Positions 13,881 through 29,467 of a DNA stretch of 64,000 nt are shown piece by piece. The notes beneath the pieces are model-generated. The model was not told where the DNA came from, did not search any database, and saw only the letters and a list, made by a program, of their open reading frames with translations. A program made the translations under genes and the position numbers. Position 1 is the stretch's first letter; each line of letters starts with the position of its first letter. The DNA lies in the IMG/VR virus record IMGVR_UViG_3300040809_000996, positions 1 to 64,000 of that record; one strand, written 5' to 3'. Source of the stretch: a virus.

Positions 13881-15655
13881 TGCCAATTAAAATAAAAGAC
13901 CTTACAGTTAAGAACTTTATGAGCGTTGGAAATCAAACGCAAGCAATAGATTTTAGCAAAGAACAATTAACACTAGTTTTAGGTGAAAACTTAGATCAAG
14001 GCGGTGACGATACTGGATCTCGTAACGGTACTGGAAAAACTACCATTATAAATGCACTATCATACGCATTATACGGACAGGCACTTACTAATATTAAGAG
14101 AAACAACTTAATTAACAAGACAAACAGTAAAGGAATGTTGGTTACATTACATTTTGAGAAGAATAATACCGACTACAGGATAGAAAGAGGTAGATCTCCA
14201 AATGTAATGAAGTTTTATATTAATAATCAAGAACAGGAAATAGTAGACGAGAGCCAAGGAGACAGTAGGAAGACACAAGAGGCTATAAATGAGCTACTTG
14301 GTATGAGTCATGACATGTTTAAACATGTTGTTGCACTTAATACCTATACGGAACCGTTCCTTAACATGCGACAGAATGATCAAAGAATGATTATTGAACA
14401 ACTGCTAGGTATTACACTGTTATCTGAAAAGGCAGAACGACTTAAAGAACAGGTACGAAGTACCAAAGAAGCTATATCCGAGGAAGAAGCACGGATTAGA
14501 GCAGTGCAAACCAGTAACGAACACATACAAGAAAGTATTGATAGCTTAAAACTAAAACAATCTGCCTGGAAAGCTCAAAAAGAAAAAGGAATCGGTAAAT
14601 TACAACGTAGCATTACCGAATTAGAAGAGTTAGACATTGAAAACGAGCTAAACTTACACACAAAACTCGCAGATTGGAATGAACACAACAACGCAATTAC
14701 AGCACTAAACAAGGAACGTGCTACATTGGAAAGCGCTCTATCTCGTGCAGATAAAACAGTTGATAAAGTCAAAAAGGATATTGAAGAATTAGAAACTGCT
14801 ATATGTTATGCGTGTAACCAACCTCTACATGCTGACAAAAAACAGGAAATGGTAGATAAAAAGTCCAAAGAATTAGAAGATGCTGTTACATATCAAACAG
14901 AAATCACAAGAAAATTAACAGATGTTGAACAAGGATTAACAGAAATTGGTGATATTAATGGCAGGCCTAACACTTTTTATGACACAGTTAAGGAAGCATA
15001 CGAGCATAAAGAAAATGTAGGTCAATTACGTAGTACACTAGAACGTACCTTAGCAGAAACAGATCCATACCAAGAACAGATTGAAGAATTGTCACAAACT
15101 GCACTACAGGACATTGTTTGGGATACTGTAAACACACTTACAGACTATAAAGAGCATCAAGAATTCCTATTAAAGTTGTTAACCAACAAGGATTCGTTCA
15201 TTAGGAAGAAGATTATTGATCAAAATCTTGCATATCTCAACAATAGGCTTACTTATTACCTAGATAGGCTAGGTTTACCACATCAAGTTACGTTCCAAAA
15301 CGATCTAGCAGTAGAAATTACCCAGCTTGGACAGGATTTAGACTTTGATAACCTTAGCAGAGGCGAAAGGAATCGATTAATACTTGGTATGAGCTTTGCA
15401 TTCCGTGATGTTTGGGAGAGTTTGTACCAAAACATTAATTTATTATTCATTGACGAACTTATCGACAGCGGGATGGACACTGCAGGAGTAGAAGGTTCAC
15501 TTGCAGTAATTAAAAAAATGGGTAGAGAACGAGAAAAAAATGTTTTCCTTATTAGTCACAAGGATGAACTAATCGGAAGAGTTAACCATGTGTTAAAAGT
15601 TATTAAGGAAAATGGATTTACATCTTACAGTAATGATTTAGAGGTGACAGTATGA
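13880..15655 (+). CDS. gp46: Recombination endonuclease subunit gp46 (Rad50/SbcC-like ATPase)
   Basis: gp46 is the ATPase partner of gp47 in DNA end processing. Motifs in order: Walker A GSRNGTGKTT near residues 46-55; a long coiled-coil region broken by a zinc hook, CYACNQ, near 308-313; the ABC signature LSRGERNRLILGMSFAF near 491; Walker B LLFIDELID near 521; and a late VFLISHKDEL block corresponding to the H-loop. The length (591) is close to T4 gp46 (560). The gene starts on the last base of gp47 and overlaps the next small gene by four bases, so the four genes look translationally coupled. The assignment is secure. Confidence 0.95.
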   Translation: MPIKIKDLTVKNFMSVGNQTQAIDFSKEQLTLVLGENLDQGGDDTGSRNGTGKTTIINALSYALYGQALTNIKRNNLINKTNSKGMLVTLHFEKNNTDYRIERGRSPNVMKFYINNQEQEIVDESQGDSRKTQEAINELLGMSHDMFKHVVALNTYTEPFLNMRQNDQRMIIEQLLGITLLSEKAERLKEQVRSTKEAISEEEARIRAVQTSNEHIQESIDSLKLKQSAWKAQKEKGIGKLQRSITELEELDIENELNLHTKLADWNEHNNAITALNKERATLESALSRADKTVDKVKKDIEELETAICYACNQPLHADKKQEMVDKKSKELEDAVTYQTEITRKLTDVEQGLTEIGDINGRPNTFYDTVKEAYEHKENVGQLRSTLERTLAETDPYQEQIEELSQTALQDIVWDTVNTLTDYKEHQEFLLKLLTNKDSFIRKKIIDQNLAYLNNRLTYYLDRLGLPHQVTFQNDLAVEITQLGQDLDFDNLSRGERNRLILGMSFAFRDVWESLYQNINLLFIDELIDSGMDTAGVEGSLAVIKKMGREREKNVFLISHKDELIGRVNHVLKVIKENGFTSYSNDLEVTV

Positions 15656-15888
15656 TAATTGACGATACGCATGACTTGCTTACAAAAGCATATATGGAAT
15701 ATTTTGTCGAAAATGAGAAGTTTGAGCGTAAATTATCACATAGGACTCACGCTTCAAGCCGGAGATCTTTAAGAAAGATAATTACTTTAGCAAAACAAAG
15801 ACAAAAAGAAATCCACGAGAAGTATGCCATCGAAAAGCAAATCAAAAGGCAAAGGGTTCGAGAGAGAAATAGCAAAGCATCTCTCTGA
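15652..15888 (+). CDS. Small basic protein of unknown function
   Basis: A 78-residue protein that starts in an ATGA overlap with the end of gp46. It begins MIIDDTHDLLTKAYMEYFVE and continues into a strongly basic, probably helical region rich in Lys, Arg and Gln. Its last 65 bases overlap the next gene in another frame. I do not recognise the family. The tight coupling to gp46 and the basic, alpha-helical composition would suit a nucleic-acid-binding accessory of the recombination operon, but that is only a guess from context. The four-base overlap is the main evidence that it is a real gene. Confidence 0.6.
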   Translation: MIIDDTHDLLTKAYMEYFVENEKFERKLSHRTHASSRRSLRKIITLAKQRQKEIHEKYAIEKQIKRQRVRERNSKASL

Positions 15889-16339
15889 AATGTATAATAA
15901 TTCATTTACAAGAGTTCCAGACAGTGGTGCTTTCACTGGCGGTAAAAACAATTATCGTCGAGAAACACTTACGGAAGGACAAGTACGAGCCCATAAAGGA
16001 GATATTATTCCTCCTGACCATTGGAAATACTTTAATGCAGAGTGTAAAAACTATGCAGGATTTCCCTTCCATCAATTACTCACTAAAGGCCCCATACCAC
16101 AACTTGAAAACTGGCTACAACAAACACTTGAGGCAGCAGACCAAGGCGATGTGAACATCCTCTTTATGAAATTTGACCGAATAGGCAAATATATCGCATA
16201 CCAATTACCACAAAACTTCAAAACTAACAGGCACTTAGACTACACAGACAAGGCTAACAACACTTGGAGACTTACAGGTTACAATGACTTCTTTGAATTG
16301 AACAAAGAAGCATTTGAATCCTGTTGTACAGGCGCTTAA
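15824..16339 (+). CDS. PD-(D/E)XK-type nuclease, possible Holliday-junction resolvase-like
   Basis: A 171-residue protein with the layout of a restriction-like nuclease core: KGKGFEREIAKHL near residues 8-20, a Gly-rich loop GAFTGG near 37, the acidic residue in KGDIIPP near 58, and the E-x-K element in FNAECKNYAGF near 71-80. In this superfamily the D and E-x-K residues bind metal and cut DNA; the N-terminal FERE helix resembles archaeal resolvases and VRR-type nucleases. It is the last gene of the gp55-gp47-gp46 operon, which fits a recombination or DNA-degradation role. The exact substrate is unknown. Its last 50 bases also form two strong hairpins that continue into the non-coding region downstream. 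Confidence 0.7.
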   Translation: MPSKSKSKGKGFEREIAKHLSEMYNNSFTRVPDSGAFTGGKNNYRRETLTEGQVRAHKGDIIPPDHWKYFNAECKNYAGFPFHQLLTKGPIPQLENWLQQTLEAADQGDVNILFMKFDRIGKYIAYQLPQNFKTNRHLDYTDKANNTWRLTGYNDFFELNKEAFESCCTGA

Positions 16340-16735
16340 GGCTATATACGAGACATTGTTTGATTAGGGTTGCCTAATCCATCTTGAGGTGTTGTTTGTA
16401 CACAACACCGGATACTGGTGCGTCTCACTCACGATAACCCCTAAAAACCTCTAGCACTAGGAACGAAGCAGAGGATAGTGTAAGTTTAACTTACATGATG
16501 TCGGTGTAGGTAAGGGAAAGGCAGGAGCCCTTGGGGTCGTACAAAACACCTACTTCATAGTCACGGCAAATGCAACTCACATGAAACATTTTCTAAAAGA
16601 CTTGGAACCTTTGTACAGGTTCCGTCTGACCAAAACAATCTACATGAACCATCAATTGATTCTAATTTATTAATGCTAGAAGAAATGTGTTAGAGCGTAA
16701 GCGAAAACACTAATGAGCGTAGCTCATTACATAAA
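16288..16735 (+). ncRNA. Candidate structured RNA (hairpin-dense, GC-rich intergenic region)
   Basis: The 415 bases between the nuclease and the next gene hold no reading frame of note but many stems. Two 60-base lines reach 48% and 52% GC, against about 30-33% in neighbouring genes. Helices: 16288-16295/16303-16310 and 16320-16324/16328-16332 (inside the nuclease 3' end); 16350-16354/16122+ paired as GAGAC at 16350-16354 with GTCTC at 16422-16426, closing two hairpins at 16362-16379 and 16388-16409; 16480-16485/16489-16494; 16506-16511/16548-16553 enclosing 16512-16516/16528-16532; an 11-pair stem at 16598-16627 with a two-base bulge; a GTAA-tetraloop hairpin at 16687-16710; and an 8-pair stem at 16711-16729. 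CCTCT/AGAGG and CACTA/TAGTG (16448-16480) interleave, so they are alternatives or a pseudoknot. No tRNA, tmRNA or group I intron core was recognised. Confidence 0.6.
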
Positions 16736-16737
16736 TA
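16730..16737 (+). promoter_or_regulatory. T4-type late promoter (CATAAATA)
   Basis: CATAAATA matches the NATAAATA late box. It lies directly after the last hairpin of the structured region and 17 bases before the TTG start at 16755, with GGATAGGAG between them. Confidence 0.55.
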
Positions 16738-16754
16738 TAGGATAGGAGAATGTT

Positions 16755-17735
16755 TTGTTAGCAAGTGAAATATTTTTAGAAGCACCGACTATAGACCCTG
16801 AATCATTTTATAGATTTGTAGAAACACCGCCTGATGCAAATGGTCATGTTGGCTATAAAGTTTACGACAAAGAAACTGGTATGGCTATTACATTTCGAGG
16901 AGAAAATGCATCAACAGAAGCAGAAGAATGGATTGATAAAAATGATCAGCGTCGGAAAGCTAAATTATTAAAGCAAAAACAAAAACAACAGCGTTTTAAG
17001 AATAAAGAACAGTATAAAAAAGTTGCTACTGACGGATACAAAAAATTCTTAGGTGGTCGTACTACTTATAGACTGATGAAATTTATTACACTTGCTGAAA
17101 GAGGAAATAATGTCCTCCTTTATATTCGTCGATACTATGCTGCATATGCAGAAAACGGTTGCAGTGAAAAAAGAATAGAAACAAATAAGAGTCCTTATGG
17201 CAATCGTTTAGTATACGATGATATGATTTATTTAAAAAAGAAAACAGCAGATACTATAGCCGAAGCTGTAGTTCAAGTATTAACTGGCTGGGCAACAGGC
17301 ACAATTTCAACCATAGCTGCAATAAAACTCTGCTCAGTTATTGCTGCAATATTTGCAATTACTGCTCCTGCAGCAATAATTTGGATAATAGGAATAATAA
17401 TTGGTGTTACGTTAGGATATGCTGCAGTGCCTTGGGTTGAAAAATTTATAGCTACCGAGTGGAAACCATTAGGTAAAACTTTAGGAGATTATGTTTTCTA
17501 TCTATTATGGTTAGAAGTAGCTGGAGGGTTAGTTGCTTGCAACGAAAGTGCAGGCAAGTCTAATAAGAATATTTTAATTGAACAAAAAAGAATAAATGAA
17601 GATCTTGAGCAAGCTAAAAATGCCTTCTTAAAAATAGCAGAAAAATTATACAATCAAATATATAATCGTTTTCCAAATAACATAAAATCAAGCATAGAGG
17701 CAATAACGAAATACATCAAAAACCTATTAAAGTAA
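16755..17735 (+). CDS. Hypothetical membrane protein
   Basis: A 326-residue protein I do not recognise. The start is TTG at 16755, six bases after AGGAG; an ATG at 16750 is out of frame and meets a stop after three codons. The protein has a charged, Lys/Gln-rich N-terminal half and a strongly hydrophobic segment at about residues 178-235 (for example CSVIAAIFAITAPAAIIWII followed by a second helix), which looks like two membrane-spanning helices. The C-terminal 80 residues are basic and helical. It has its own late promoter and faces the gp26/gp51 genes, with a nine-base convergent overlap. Late expression plus membrane segments would fit a holin-like, spanin-like or internal virion protein, but nothing in the sequence decides among them. 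Confidence 0.7.
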   Translation: MLASEIFLEAPTIDPESFYRFVETPPDANGHVGYKVYDKETGMAITFRGENASTEAEEWIDKNDQRRKAKLLKQKQKQQRFKNKEQYKKVATDGYKKFLGGRTTYRLMKFITLAERGNNVLLYIRRYYAAYAENGCSEKRIETNKSPYGNRLVYDDMIYLKKKTADTIAEAVVQVLTGWATGTISTIAAIKLCSVIAAIFAITAPAAIIWIIGIIIGVTLGYAAVPWVEKFIATEWKPLGKTLGDYVFYLLWLEVAGGLVACNESAGKSNKNILIEQKRINEDLEQAKNAFLKIAEKLYNQIYNRFPNNIKSSIEAITKYIKNLLK

Positions 17736-28419: not shown

Positions 28420-28806
28420 ATGGCATATAATGATGCAGTATTAGAACATTACAACAATCCTAAAAACGTAGGCAGTTTAGACAAATCAGCAGCAGATGTT
28501 GGTACAGGGTTAGTTGGTGCACCGGAATGCGGTGACGTTATGAAATTACAAATTCGTGTAGAAGATGAACGTATTGTTGATGCAAAATTTAAGACATTTG
28601 GTTGTGGATCAGCTATTGCAAGCAGTAGTTTAGCAACAGAATGGGTAAAGGGCAAGACAATAAACGAAGCTTTTGAAATAAAAAATACAGAAATAGTAGA
28701 AGAACTAGCACTTCCTCCAGTAAAAATCCATTGTTCAGTTTTAGCAGAAGATGCAATTAAAGCAGCAATAAAAGATTACAGGAGTAAACAATGCACAAAA
28801 AATTAG
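28420..28806 (+). CDS. iscU: Iron-sulfur cluster assembly scaffold protein IscU
   Basis: IscU receives sulfur from IscS and iron, builds a [2Fe-2S] cluster and passes it on with help from HscA/HscB. The 128 residues equal the usual IscU length. All functional residues are present: Cys37 in APECGDVMK with Asp39 beside it, Cys62 in FGCGSAIASSS, and His104-Cys105 in the ALPPVKIHCSVLAEDAI block, which includes the LPPVK motif that the chaperone HscA recognises. It lies between the capsid gene and virion genes, behind its own late promoter and a GGAG ribosome site. Nothing suggests decay. It is a host-derived auxiliary gene, probably supporting Fe-S enzymes late in infection. Confidence 0.95.
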   Translation: MAYNDAVLEHYNNPKNVGSLDKSAADVGTGLVGAPECGDVMKLQIRVEDERIVDAKFKTFGCGSAIASSSLATEWVKGKTINEAFEIKNTEIVEELALPPVKIHCSVLAEDAIKAAIKDYRSKQCTKN

Positions 28807-29017: not shown

Positions 29018-29467
29018 ATGGGAAGACCAGTAAACAAAAAGTATTTTGGAACACCTACTGCAGCAGGTAAAGAAATCAAAGTTGATTTCTGGGGAACAGC
29101 AAGTGTTGTACAAGGATACATTGTAAAGCAATTAGGCAGCAAAAAATTTAGAGTAGCAGCTCTTGGAACAGGTGGAACACCAACTTACGATAGATTTCTT
29201 ACTTGGGGTAAATTACCTGCAGCTCTAACTGGTACTGAAATGTCAATATCAGTAAAAGCAGACGACGGCGAAACATATAATTGTAAAAAAATTGCTGGAC
29301 GTAAAATGACAGTAGTTGCTCCAACAGCTACAGGGGCAAATGCTTATGACGGAAAATCAATTCCATGGAACTTCTCAACAGCTCTAGATGATGGTGCTGT
29401 AGAAGTAGAAGAAGCAGGCGATGATGATGCTGGAACAAATGCTACTGATTTCGTTGAAGATGTATAA
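29018..29467 (+). CDS. Virion structural protein, MGRPxNKKYFG type
   Basis: A 149-residue protein beginning MGRPVNKKYFGTPTAAGKEI. I recall proteins with this start in the structural regions of marine T4-like phages, without a defined role. The body is beta-rich, with repeated Gly and Thr (VAALGTGGTPTYDRFLTWGK), and the C-terminus is strongly acidic (EVEEAGDDDAGTNATDF). A strong AAGGAG ribosome site, its own late promoter, a structured leader and a terminator-like hairpin right after the gene suggest a highly expressed, monocistronic virion protein, such as a head-decoration or tail component. That role is inferred. Confidence 0.6.
   Translation: MGRPVNKKYFGTPTAAGKEIKVDFWGTASVVQGYIVKQLGSKKFRVAALGTGGTPTYDRFLTWGKLPAALTGTEMSISVKADDGETYNCKKIAGRKMTVVAPTATGANAYDGKSIPWNFSTALDDGAVEVEEAGDDDAGTNATDFVEDV

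Follow-up and report, generated by a model that had tools for sequence, protein, structure and literature searches.

Positions 16340-16650 of the window, the 64,000-nt stretch of viral DNA analysed here, almost certainly encode a strongly conserved structured RNA on the + strand. Our preferred interpretation, to which we assign a probability of roughly 0.55, is that of a free-standing, trans-acting ornate RNA of a large uncultured, mostly T4-like phage group. The identification of an RNA rests on the comparison of homologous sequences and not on folding energy; folding of the single sequence gives a weak signal (z -1.93 for the + strand, -4.96 for the - strand).

The window is part of a 144,118-base virus record with T4-like genes, which include a Portal_T4 portal, the major capsid protein Gp23, a gp26-like baseplate protein (T4_baseplate), an SMC-like gp46, a calcineurin-like gp47 and a late sigma factor. 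A preliminary description of the region, made from the letters of the window alone, had suggested an undescribed structured RNA in a GC-rich island. This reading is supported by abundant compensatory changes in homologous regions and by the lack of an Rfam match at the gathering threshold. The start that it gave, 16288, falls within the nuclease gene. The 415 bases described as having no useful frame are confirmed: between the end of the nuclease ORF (16339) and the start of the following one (16755), no ORF of at least 60 aa is found on either strand. Two 60-base lines said to reach about 50% GC measure 48.3% and 50.0%, compared to 34.5% for the whole window and 43.7% for 16340-16650; a GC content of 49% is reached by 0.9% of 1065 windows of 120 bases.

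All stems listed in that description were found at their places (Table 1). The closing helix of the closed multibranch element and its two inner helices covary in relatives. In the nested stems at 16506-16553, GTAGGT/ACCTAC encloses AAGGG/CCCTT, and the interleaving pairs proposed as a pseudoknot correspond to ACCCC/GGGGT, which crosses this stem. The GTAA hairpin with tandem G-A pairs is likewise present. It belongs to a tail that a less conserved stretch parts from the core, and whether the tail is a member of the RNA is unsettled. A strict pattern of the tandem-GA hairpin is matched by 100 of 164 distinct tails and by 1 of 164 shuffled tails; it misses the hairpin of the window itself, which has an A-A in the outer stem. 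Of these 100 tails, 79 have a TAAATA-like motif no further than 120 nt away. The corresponding ATAAATA of the window resembles the T4 late promoter motif, and a promoter function is only inferred from this likeness. Across the window, TATAAATA shows no enrichment, with 7 occurrences compared to an expectation of 13.2.

Table 1 Predicted parts of the RNA and adjacent features in window coordinates. Both ends of the RNA are inferred from conservation and are unmapped.
Feature	Position	Strand	Remarks
Nuclease gene, PDDEXK_15 / RusA-like	15824-16339		upstream neighbour of the RNA region
Structured RNA	16340-16650	+	homologs and covariation; 0-1.6% divergence in the close group
Type B 5' domain	~16350-16426	+	followed by the core
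Three-way element of the 5' domain	16350-16426	+	closing helix GAGAC 16350-16354 / GTCTC 16422-16426
Inner hairpin of the 5' domain	16362-16368/16373-16379	+	
Inner helix of the 5' domain, CATC/GGTG	16380-16383/16417-16420	+	
Hairpin GGTGTTGT/ACAACACC within the 5' domain	16388-16409	+	sequence and length vary in relatives; covariation uncounted
Conserved core	~16436-16650	+	
Pseudoknot helix ACCCC/GGGGT	16437-16441/16533-16537	+	A1 helix 1
Hairpin CCTCT/AGAGG with inner GC/GC	16448-16474	+	strongly conserved loop with TAGGAACGAA; A1 helices 2 and 3
Hairpin TGTAAGT/ACTTACA	16479-16495	+	A1 helix 4, at the length-variable arm
Stem GTAGGT/ACCTAC	16506-16511/16548-16553	+	U-A to C-G in six rows
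Inner stem AAGGG/CCCTT	16512-16516/16528-16532	+	A1 helix 6
Motif ACTCACATGAA	16575-16585	+	strongly conserved, unpaired in the model
Hairpin GGAACC/GGTTCC	16604-16609/16618-16623	+	A1 helix 7
Motif ATCTACATGAA	16638-16648	+	strongly conserved, resembles the motif at 16575
Tail, tandem-GA hairpin	16687-16710	+	
Tail, hairpin AATGAGC/GCTCATT	16712-16728	+	
ATAAATA, T4-late-promoter-like	16731-16737	+	in front of the variable ORF
Variable ORF	16755-17735		downstream neighbour of the RNA region

Homologs of the RNA region

A search with the nuclease protein identified nine loci that are near-identical to the window where they overlap it. Positions 16340-16645 are near-invariant among the close loci containing that region. 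From ~16740 on, the sequence is unrelated in most close loci and a different ORF starts there, with the exception of L003, which keeps the ORF of the window. In a search with gp46, the best 80 loci were kept, most of them at ~75% protein identity, and in many of these blastn detected diverged sequences homologous to the intergenic region. The RNA is found in 46 of the 48 loci among these 80 that have at least 1300 nt downstream of gp46, the other 32 being too short to judge. The two loci without it end after 1321 and 1431 nt and may simply be cut, since the distance to the RNA can be as large as 2374 nt. It is frequent in uncultured phage contigs, as two pattern scans of the viral collection yielded at least 120 stretches each. 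All fetches together comprise 239 loci that match at E<1e-5. Their 207 full-length cores represent 154 distinct sequences, nearly all of the latter from uncultured phage contigs. Some of the 239 loci overlap on one contig and are thus not independent genomes.

Against 50,697 GenBank phage records, blastn returned four short chance hits for the window region and no match for a member with the type A 5' domain described below; the reach of blastn ends near 65-70% identity. With 0 of 50,697 records containing the RNA by this search, the usual model phages would not reveal it. No convincing match to the covariance model was obtained in PA5oct, Phosso, Atu_ph07 and SCTP-2, which carry a related gp46, portal or RusA gene. 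In a search of the records Atu_ph07 scored 19.8 bits at E 0.003, but the fit is limited to one hairpin. The gene order of Pseudomonas phage PA5oct is similar, with an unannotated gap of ~660 bases between gp46 and a hub gene (L210 7305-7969), and the covariance model finds no match in this gap. The single match of the type A member to a plasmid collection is short (E 0.009, covering 12% of the query), falls within a gene for an ABC transporter and is read as chance.

Bacterial genomes contain 26 pattern hits, and the whole core is matched in only two of them, L300 and L303. Both belong to one Neomarinimicrobiota MAG (RS350) and have equal core hit scores and equal-scoring portal genes; because a phage portal gene is present on both contigs, they are read as phage contigs binned with the bacterium. 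In three further candidates the similarity is confined to the surroundings of the search pattern and was put down to chance. These are L282 and L296, with E 6e-5 over 48 bases in nhmmer and 0.08 with the model, and L286, with E 0.001 in nhmmer and 0.009 with the model.

Covariation in the core and the 5' domain

The core alignment, A1, comprises 81 sequences with a median pairwise identity of 77%, to which the gp46 search contributed 30, a pattern in the GTAGGT..GCC segment 50 and the window one. Among the 190 first-hit loci, 17 had no core motif (mostly cut off) and 26 were too short; deduplication left 113, and from these 18 without an anchor motif and 14 that were too similar were omitted. 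The GTAGGT..GCC pattern was used to fetch L092-L209 and a pattern in TCTGAC..ATCTACATGA to fetch L225-L277, and the rows of A1 were additionally required to contain GGAACGA and TCTACATG. The invariance of these segments in A1 is therefore partly built in, because fetch patterns and anchors demanded them. The 45 full-length cores fetched by gp46 alone contain GGAACGA in 45, GTAGGT in 44, and ACTCACATGA and ATCTACATGA in 43 cases each.

The structure derived from A1 has 36 pairs in seven helices, with 97.1% of the cells paired and 17 of the 36 pairs changed on both sides. Its covariation score of 0.299, compared to a shuffled mean of 0.129, is reached by none of 500 shuffles, and in a control with slid partners 36-42% of the cells are paired at scores of at most 0.073. 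Compensatory changes in the compared sequences thus support six predicted core helices, one of them a pseudoknot. The pseudoknot helix is changed on both sides in all six aligned pairs, with 95.3% of the cells paired, and occurs in lineage-specific variants such as AGTACA/TGTACT, GCTAC/GTAGC and ACCCC/GGGGT. The row of the window is one base out of register in this helix in A1, and its own pairing was read directly. Helix 4 is doubly changed in 5/5 pairs (88.6% of cells paired) and forms an arm that is a short stem in some relatives and a long stem in others. The length of the core varies from 195 to 323 nt in the loci seen.

The stem GTAGGT/ACCTAC is nearly invariant in A1, partly because fetching favoured it. 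In A4, an alignment of divergent members for which 34 of 48 sequences were taken, its U-A pair is replaced by C-G in six of the 34 rows. In A4 the pair types do not exceed those of shuffled alignments (408 of 500 shuffles as high), nor do the pairs with double changes (37 of 500 as high). For the inner stem no double changes are counted in A1; its whole support consists of the lineages AAGGG/CCCTT, TGGG/CCCA and AAGGA/TCCTT, compared by eye. RNAalifold applied to A1 alone does not choose GTAGGT/ACCTAC and is unable to display the pseudoknot. The long-range pairing of GTAGGTTG with CAATCTAC that it proposes was rejected: its covariation with the divergent rows included is 0.066 both as observed and in shuffles, and it is broken in six rows that retain GTAGGT/ACCTAC. 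A pairing of the loop UUGUAC at 16396 with GUACAA, which has one double change in L007, was also dropped, as it is broken by L002 and L004 and the covarying pseudoknot uses different bases.

The same core is shown to be combined with a 5' domain that, by sequence comparison, has at least two unrelated forms. In a rough sort of the loci, 155 are of type A and 67 of type B. Type A was aligned in A3 with 52 of 96 references, hand-picked for spread. Its six helices have 97.6% of the cells paired and a covariation score of 0.459 versus 0.180 in shuffles; the pair types are not above shuffles (130 of 500 as high). The first type A helix is CCAACA/TGTTGG with variants such as ACAGCA/TGCTGT and CTAACA/TGTTAG. 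Its pairing involves the loop of a further hairpin, itself covarying, and creates a second pseudoknot, hence supported pseudoknots number one in the RNA of the window and two in type A members. Type B, to which the window belongs, was aligned in A2 with 33 of the 38 rows left by deduplication, the other five being misfiled type A. Its three helices are those of the closed multibranch element; 91.4% of the cells are paired, 11/15 pairs are doubly changed, and the covariation score is 0.375 versus 0.198 in shuffles. One of five measures, the pair types, is not above shuffles (20 versus 23.9). A2 includes six rows with a deviating inner part (L055, L160, L231, L244, L257 and L259).

Taken as a general test of a structured RNA, compensatory changes above controls are present with the exception of the measures given above. 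An absence of such changes from homologous regions would have refuted the preliminary description; these regions are rich in them. The alternative of a decayed coding sequence is ruled out, as double changes keep the pairing and length shifts are not multiples of three, in addition to the lack of an ORF of at least 60 aa in the window region.

In the pairs of A1 and A3, 319 G-U cells face 23 A-C cells. The + strand is taken as the functional RNA because a G-U cell can pair only on the + strand and an A-C cell could pair only on the - strand. In A2 alone this strand signal is absent (G-U 18, A-C 22). The divergence of the RNA between the window and eight close loci is 0-1.6%. Fourfold-degenerate sites diverge by 11-30% in gp46 (five close loci with gp46) and by 1.8-23.6% in the adjacent nuclease gene, where the value exceeds that of the RNA in every locus (1.8% in L003, 5.5% in L006 and 23.6% in L005). 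L013 and L277 have the same values and the same RNA and are probably one phage. As judged from these substitutions, the putative RNA is held more tightly than adjacent silent sites. Such conservation, beyond that of fourfold sites in the neighbouring genes, makes it probable that the RNA matters to the phage.

Genomic neighbourhood and possible functions

The position of the RNA is nearly fixed. gp46 is seen in 193 of the 239 hits and lies upstream on the same strand in all 193, gp26 is seen in 137 and lies downstream on the other strand in all 137, and the portal gene, seen in 58, is always downstream on the same strand. Such constancy of place and strand would suit an element acting in cis at the end of an early/middle operon that protects the 3' end of the gp47-gp46-nuclease mRNA, directs its processing or, as attenuator or antiterminator, affects RNA polymerase on its way from this operon to the late genes. 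The first helix of type A members fits as well, since it lies, for instance in L016, inside the last codons of the upstream gene. Location behind the same operon and on the same strand in all but three informative contigs, for which a cis element would account too, counts against a role in trans, as does the lack of any data on transcript, size, partner and phenotype.

The genes that border the RNA are exchanged, though, which speaks against cis control and for action in trans, as the RNA stays while the upstream nuclease and the downstream ORFs change. A GIY-YIG protein is encoded within 3 kb upstream in 199 of the 239 hits, an unrelated RusA-like protein in 16, and a small extra ORF is at times inserted between nuclease and RNA. 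In most of the remaining 24 hits the contig ends within 300 nt upstream. Three of these 24, with 7-11 kb upstream, have no gp46, nuclease or gp26 neighbours, and the RNA stands among other genes. In L257 (RNA at 2301-2524) it precedes an 80-aa ORF and a CLP_protease gene, in L259 (7504-7724) it is located between Aldolase_II and Cytochrom_C genes, and in L123 (6823-7026), an 8.6-kb contig, an HNH endonuclease ORF is found ~1.4 kb upstream, besides a terminase-small-subunit-like ORF (weak, E 2e-4). gp46 and portal were not found in the records of L257 and L259 (40 and 47 kb). The three contigs may come from different phage lineages or from different regions of related genomes. Moreover, the complexity of the RNA goes beyond the needs of a stability element, and both terminator-like sites found lie on the other strand. 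Control in cis therefore remains possible and is rather unlikely. A trans-acting RNA is favoured over a control element of a neighbour because the fold is kept amid gene exchange and the RNA can stand elsewhere.

Some genes in these surroundings were recorded as side observations. L257 and L259 both carry phrog_11543, plus Clp protease or metabolic genes. The ORF downstream of the RNA in the window occupies a hypervariable slot that directly follows the late-promoter-like sequence: phages near-identical up to ~16740 mostly differ in the ORF (274-343 aa) that they have at this place, and the slot may hold an exchangeable gene for host interaction. An ORF of 78 aa (15652-15888), which overlaps the nuclease start, has relatives in most gp46 loci and no Pfam or PHROG match.

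For the trans-acting RNA, we infer that it would be transcribed with the late-sigma/gp47/gp46/nuclease transcript and then cut from it, that it would accumulate during infection, and that it would act as a structural RNA. A sigma-70-like promoter was not found on the + strand. The product might either be a self-assembling particle like that of GOLLD and ROOL or the scaffold of an RNA-protein particle; in the latter case the conserved unpaired motifs, that is the loop AGGAACGAA, ACTCACATGAA and ATCTACATGA, may be the binding sites. Self-assembly is without direct support, as no self-complementary loop is common to all members; the palindrome GUCGAC, for example, is lost in L230, L249, L257 and L259. 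It is a tentative proposal, held at somewhat less than even odds, that the RNA constitutes a new ornate class with a pseudoknotted core and plug-in 5' domains, self-assembling or building a ribonucleoprotein and needed by the phages, or alternatively a new ribozyme.

A regulatory small RNA that pairs with mRNAs through its two ACATGAA motifs appears doubtful. In favour of it, these motifs are similar, strongly conserved and apparently unpaired, but the window has no excess of complements to the longer motifs (3 versus 5.45 and 3 versus 2.87 expected, own site included), and large pseudoknotted folds are unusual among antisense RNAs. A conserved small peptide starting after either ATGAA was also considered and rejected, as the frame is not kept (by eye). 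Some T4 origins form an R-loop with their transcript, and the neighbouring recombination genes gp46 and gp47 together with the strongly conserved DNA might point to a replication or recombination origin of this kind; compensatory changes and the G-U excess indicate selection on RNA base pairs instead and render it very improbable. A reading as a group I intron, or as a mobile RNA linked to the endonuclease next to it, is largely refuted, despite the frequent GIY-YIG gene (that of L016, the one tested, matches SegE_GIY-YIG) and the HNH ORF of L123, since Rfam intron families are absent among the matches at E<=10, no recognised gene is interrupted, and the RNA persists where RusA replaces the endonuclease (window) or where none is found nearby (L257, L259).

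Comparison with known RNAs

Rfam 15 gives no match for the region at the gathering threshold, neither in the window nor in ten loci. At E<=10, positions 16200-16900 yield mir-1497, HOTAIR_2, U6atac and SMAD5-AS1_1 (E 2.9-7.1), which are far below gathering and attributed to chance, and L060 6250-7000 yields no match. The covariance models of GOLLD (RF02032) and ROOL (RF03087) were included and remain unmatched, at gathering in the window and the ten loci and at E<=10 in both stretches. ARAGORN detects no tRNA or tmRNA in the window, and no tRNAs were found in the rest of the 144-kb record (L304-L308) or in eight further loci. A riboswitch or other cis leader would be expected to precede a constant type of downstream gene; the downstream ORFs differ even between close relatives. 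The features of group I or II introns are lacking, with no match to an intron covariance model and an intergenic position. In the accessible portions of open-licence papers on structured, ornate and marine-phage RNAs, this RNA was not recognised, which is weak evidence of absence.

One Rfam RNA is present elsewhere in the window. Freshwater-2 RNA (RF02980, 28939-29020, 68.5 bits) follows the genes for Gp23 and a NifU_N (IscU-like) protein and reaches into the beginning of an ORF at 29018-29467. The NifU_N gene (28420-28806) is a phage-borne iron-sulfur scaffold gene adjoining the major capsid gene. Freshwater-2 RNA shares the window with the RNA described here but is unrelated to it, with a separate locus, a model of 84 positions and the Rfam type Cis-reg.

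The RNA described here represents a new family of unknown function, at least 300 bases long, common to many related viruses and missing from Rfam 15. Among large RNAs outside such phages, OLE is comparable in being highly structured and well conserved, its biochemical function not being established according to the available part of the source (PMC12054373); unlike the present RNA, it comes from Bacillota, and it is absent among the Rfam matches obtained here.

The portion of the GOLLD and ROOL literature at hand describes GOLLD as having a conserved 3' region and a less conserved 5' region, with many members exceeding 800 nt and an unknown function, and ROOL as a large RNA that occurs in phages and prophages, contains several pseudoknots and has no known protein partner, very abundant in the cell in a report on one strain; both are often located near tRNA islands (PMC12286853). 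As far as this partial source allows a comparison, the present RNA shares with GOLLD the character of a large ornate phage RNA whose constant core and variable 5' domain match in arrangement (by analogy only), and with ROOL that of a large phage RNA with pseudoknots and without a known protein partner. In contrast to GOLLD, it is shorter, lacks a covariance-model match and has a fixed place behind gp46; in contrast to ROOL, it misses the ROOL model; and unlike the surroundings of both, its record has no tRNA. Judged by these models, the predicted RNA resembles GOLLD and ROOL in plan and belongs to neither. As the functions of both are unknown in the source available, the family could serve as a tractable second system for ornate phage RNAs, helped by a secondary structure already worked out, by domain swaps that occur naturally and by a constant place in the genome. 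If the proposal is true, a further class of phage RNA joins GOLLD and ROOL, or the RNA is a new ribozyme; GOLLD and ROOL, which form homo-oligomeric cages, again as far as the partial source goes, are its closest analogy.
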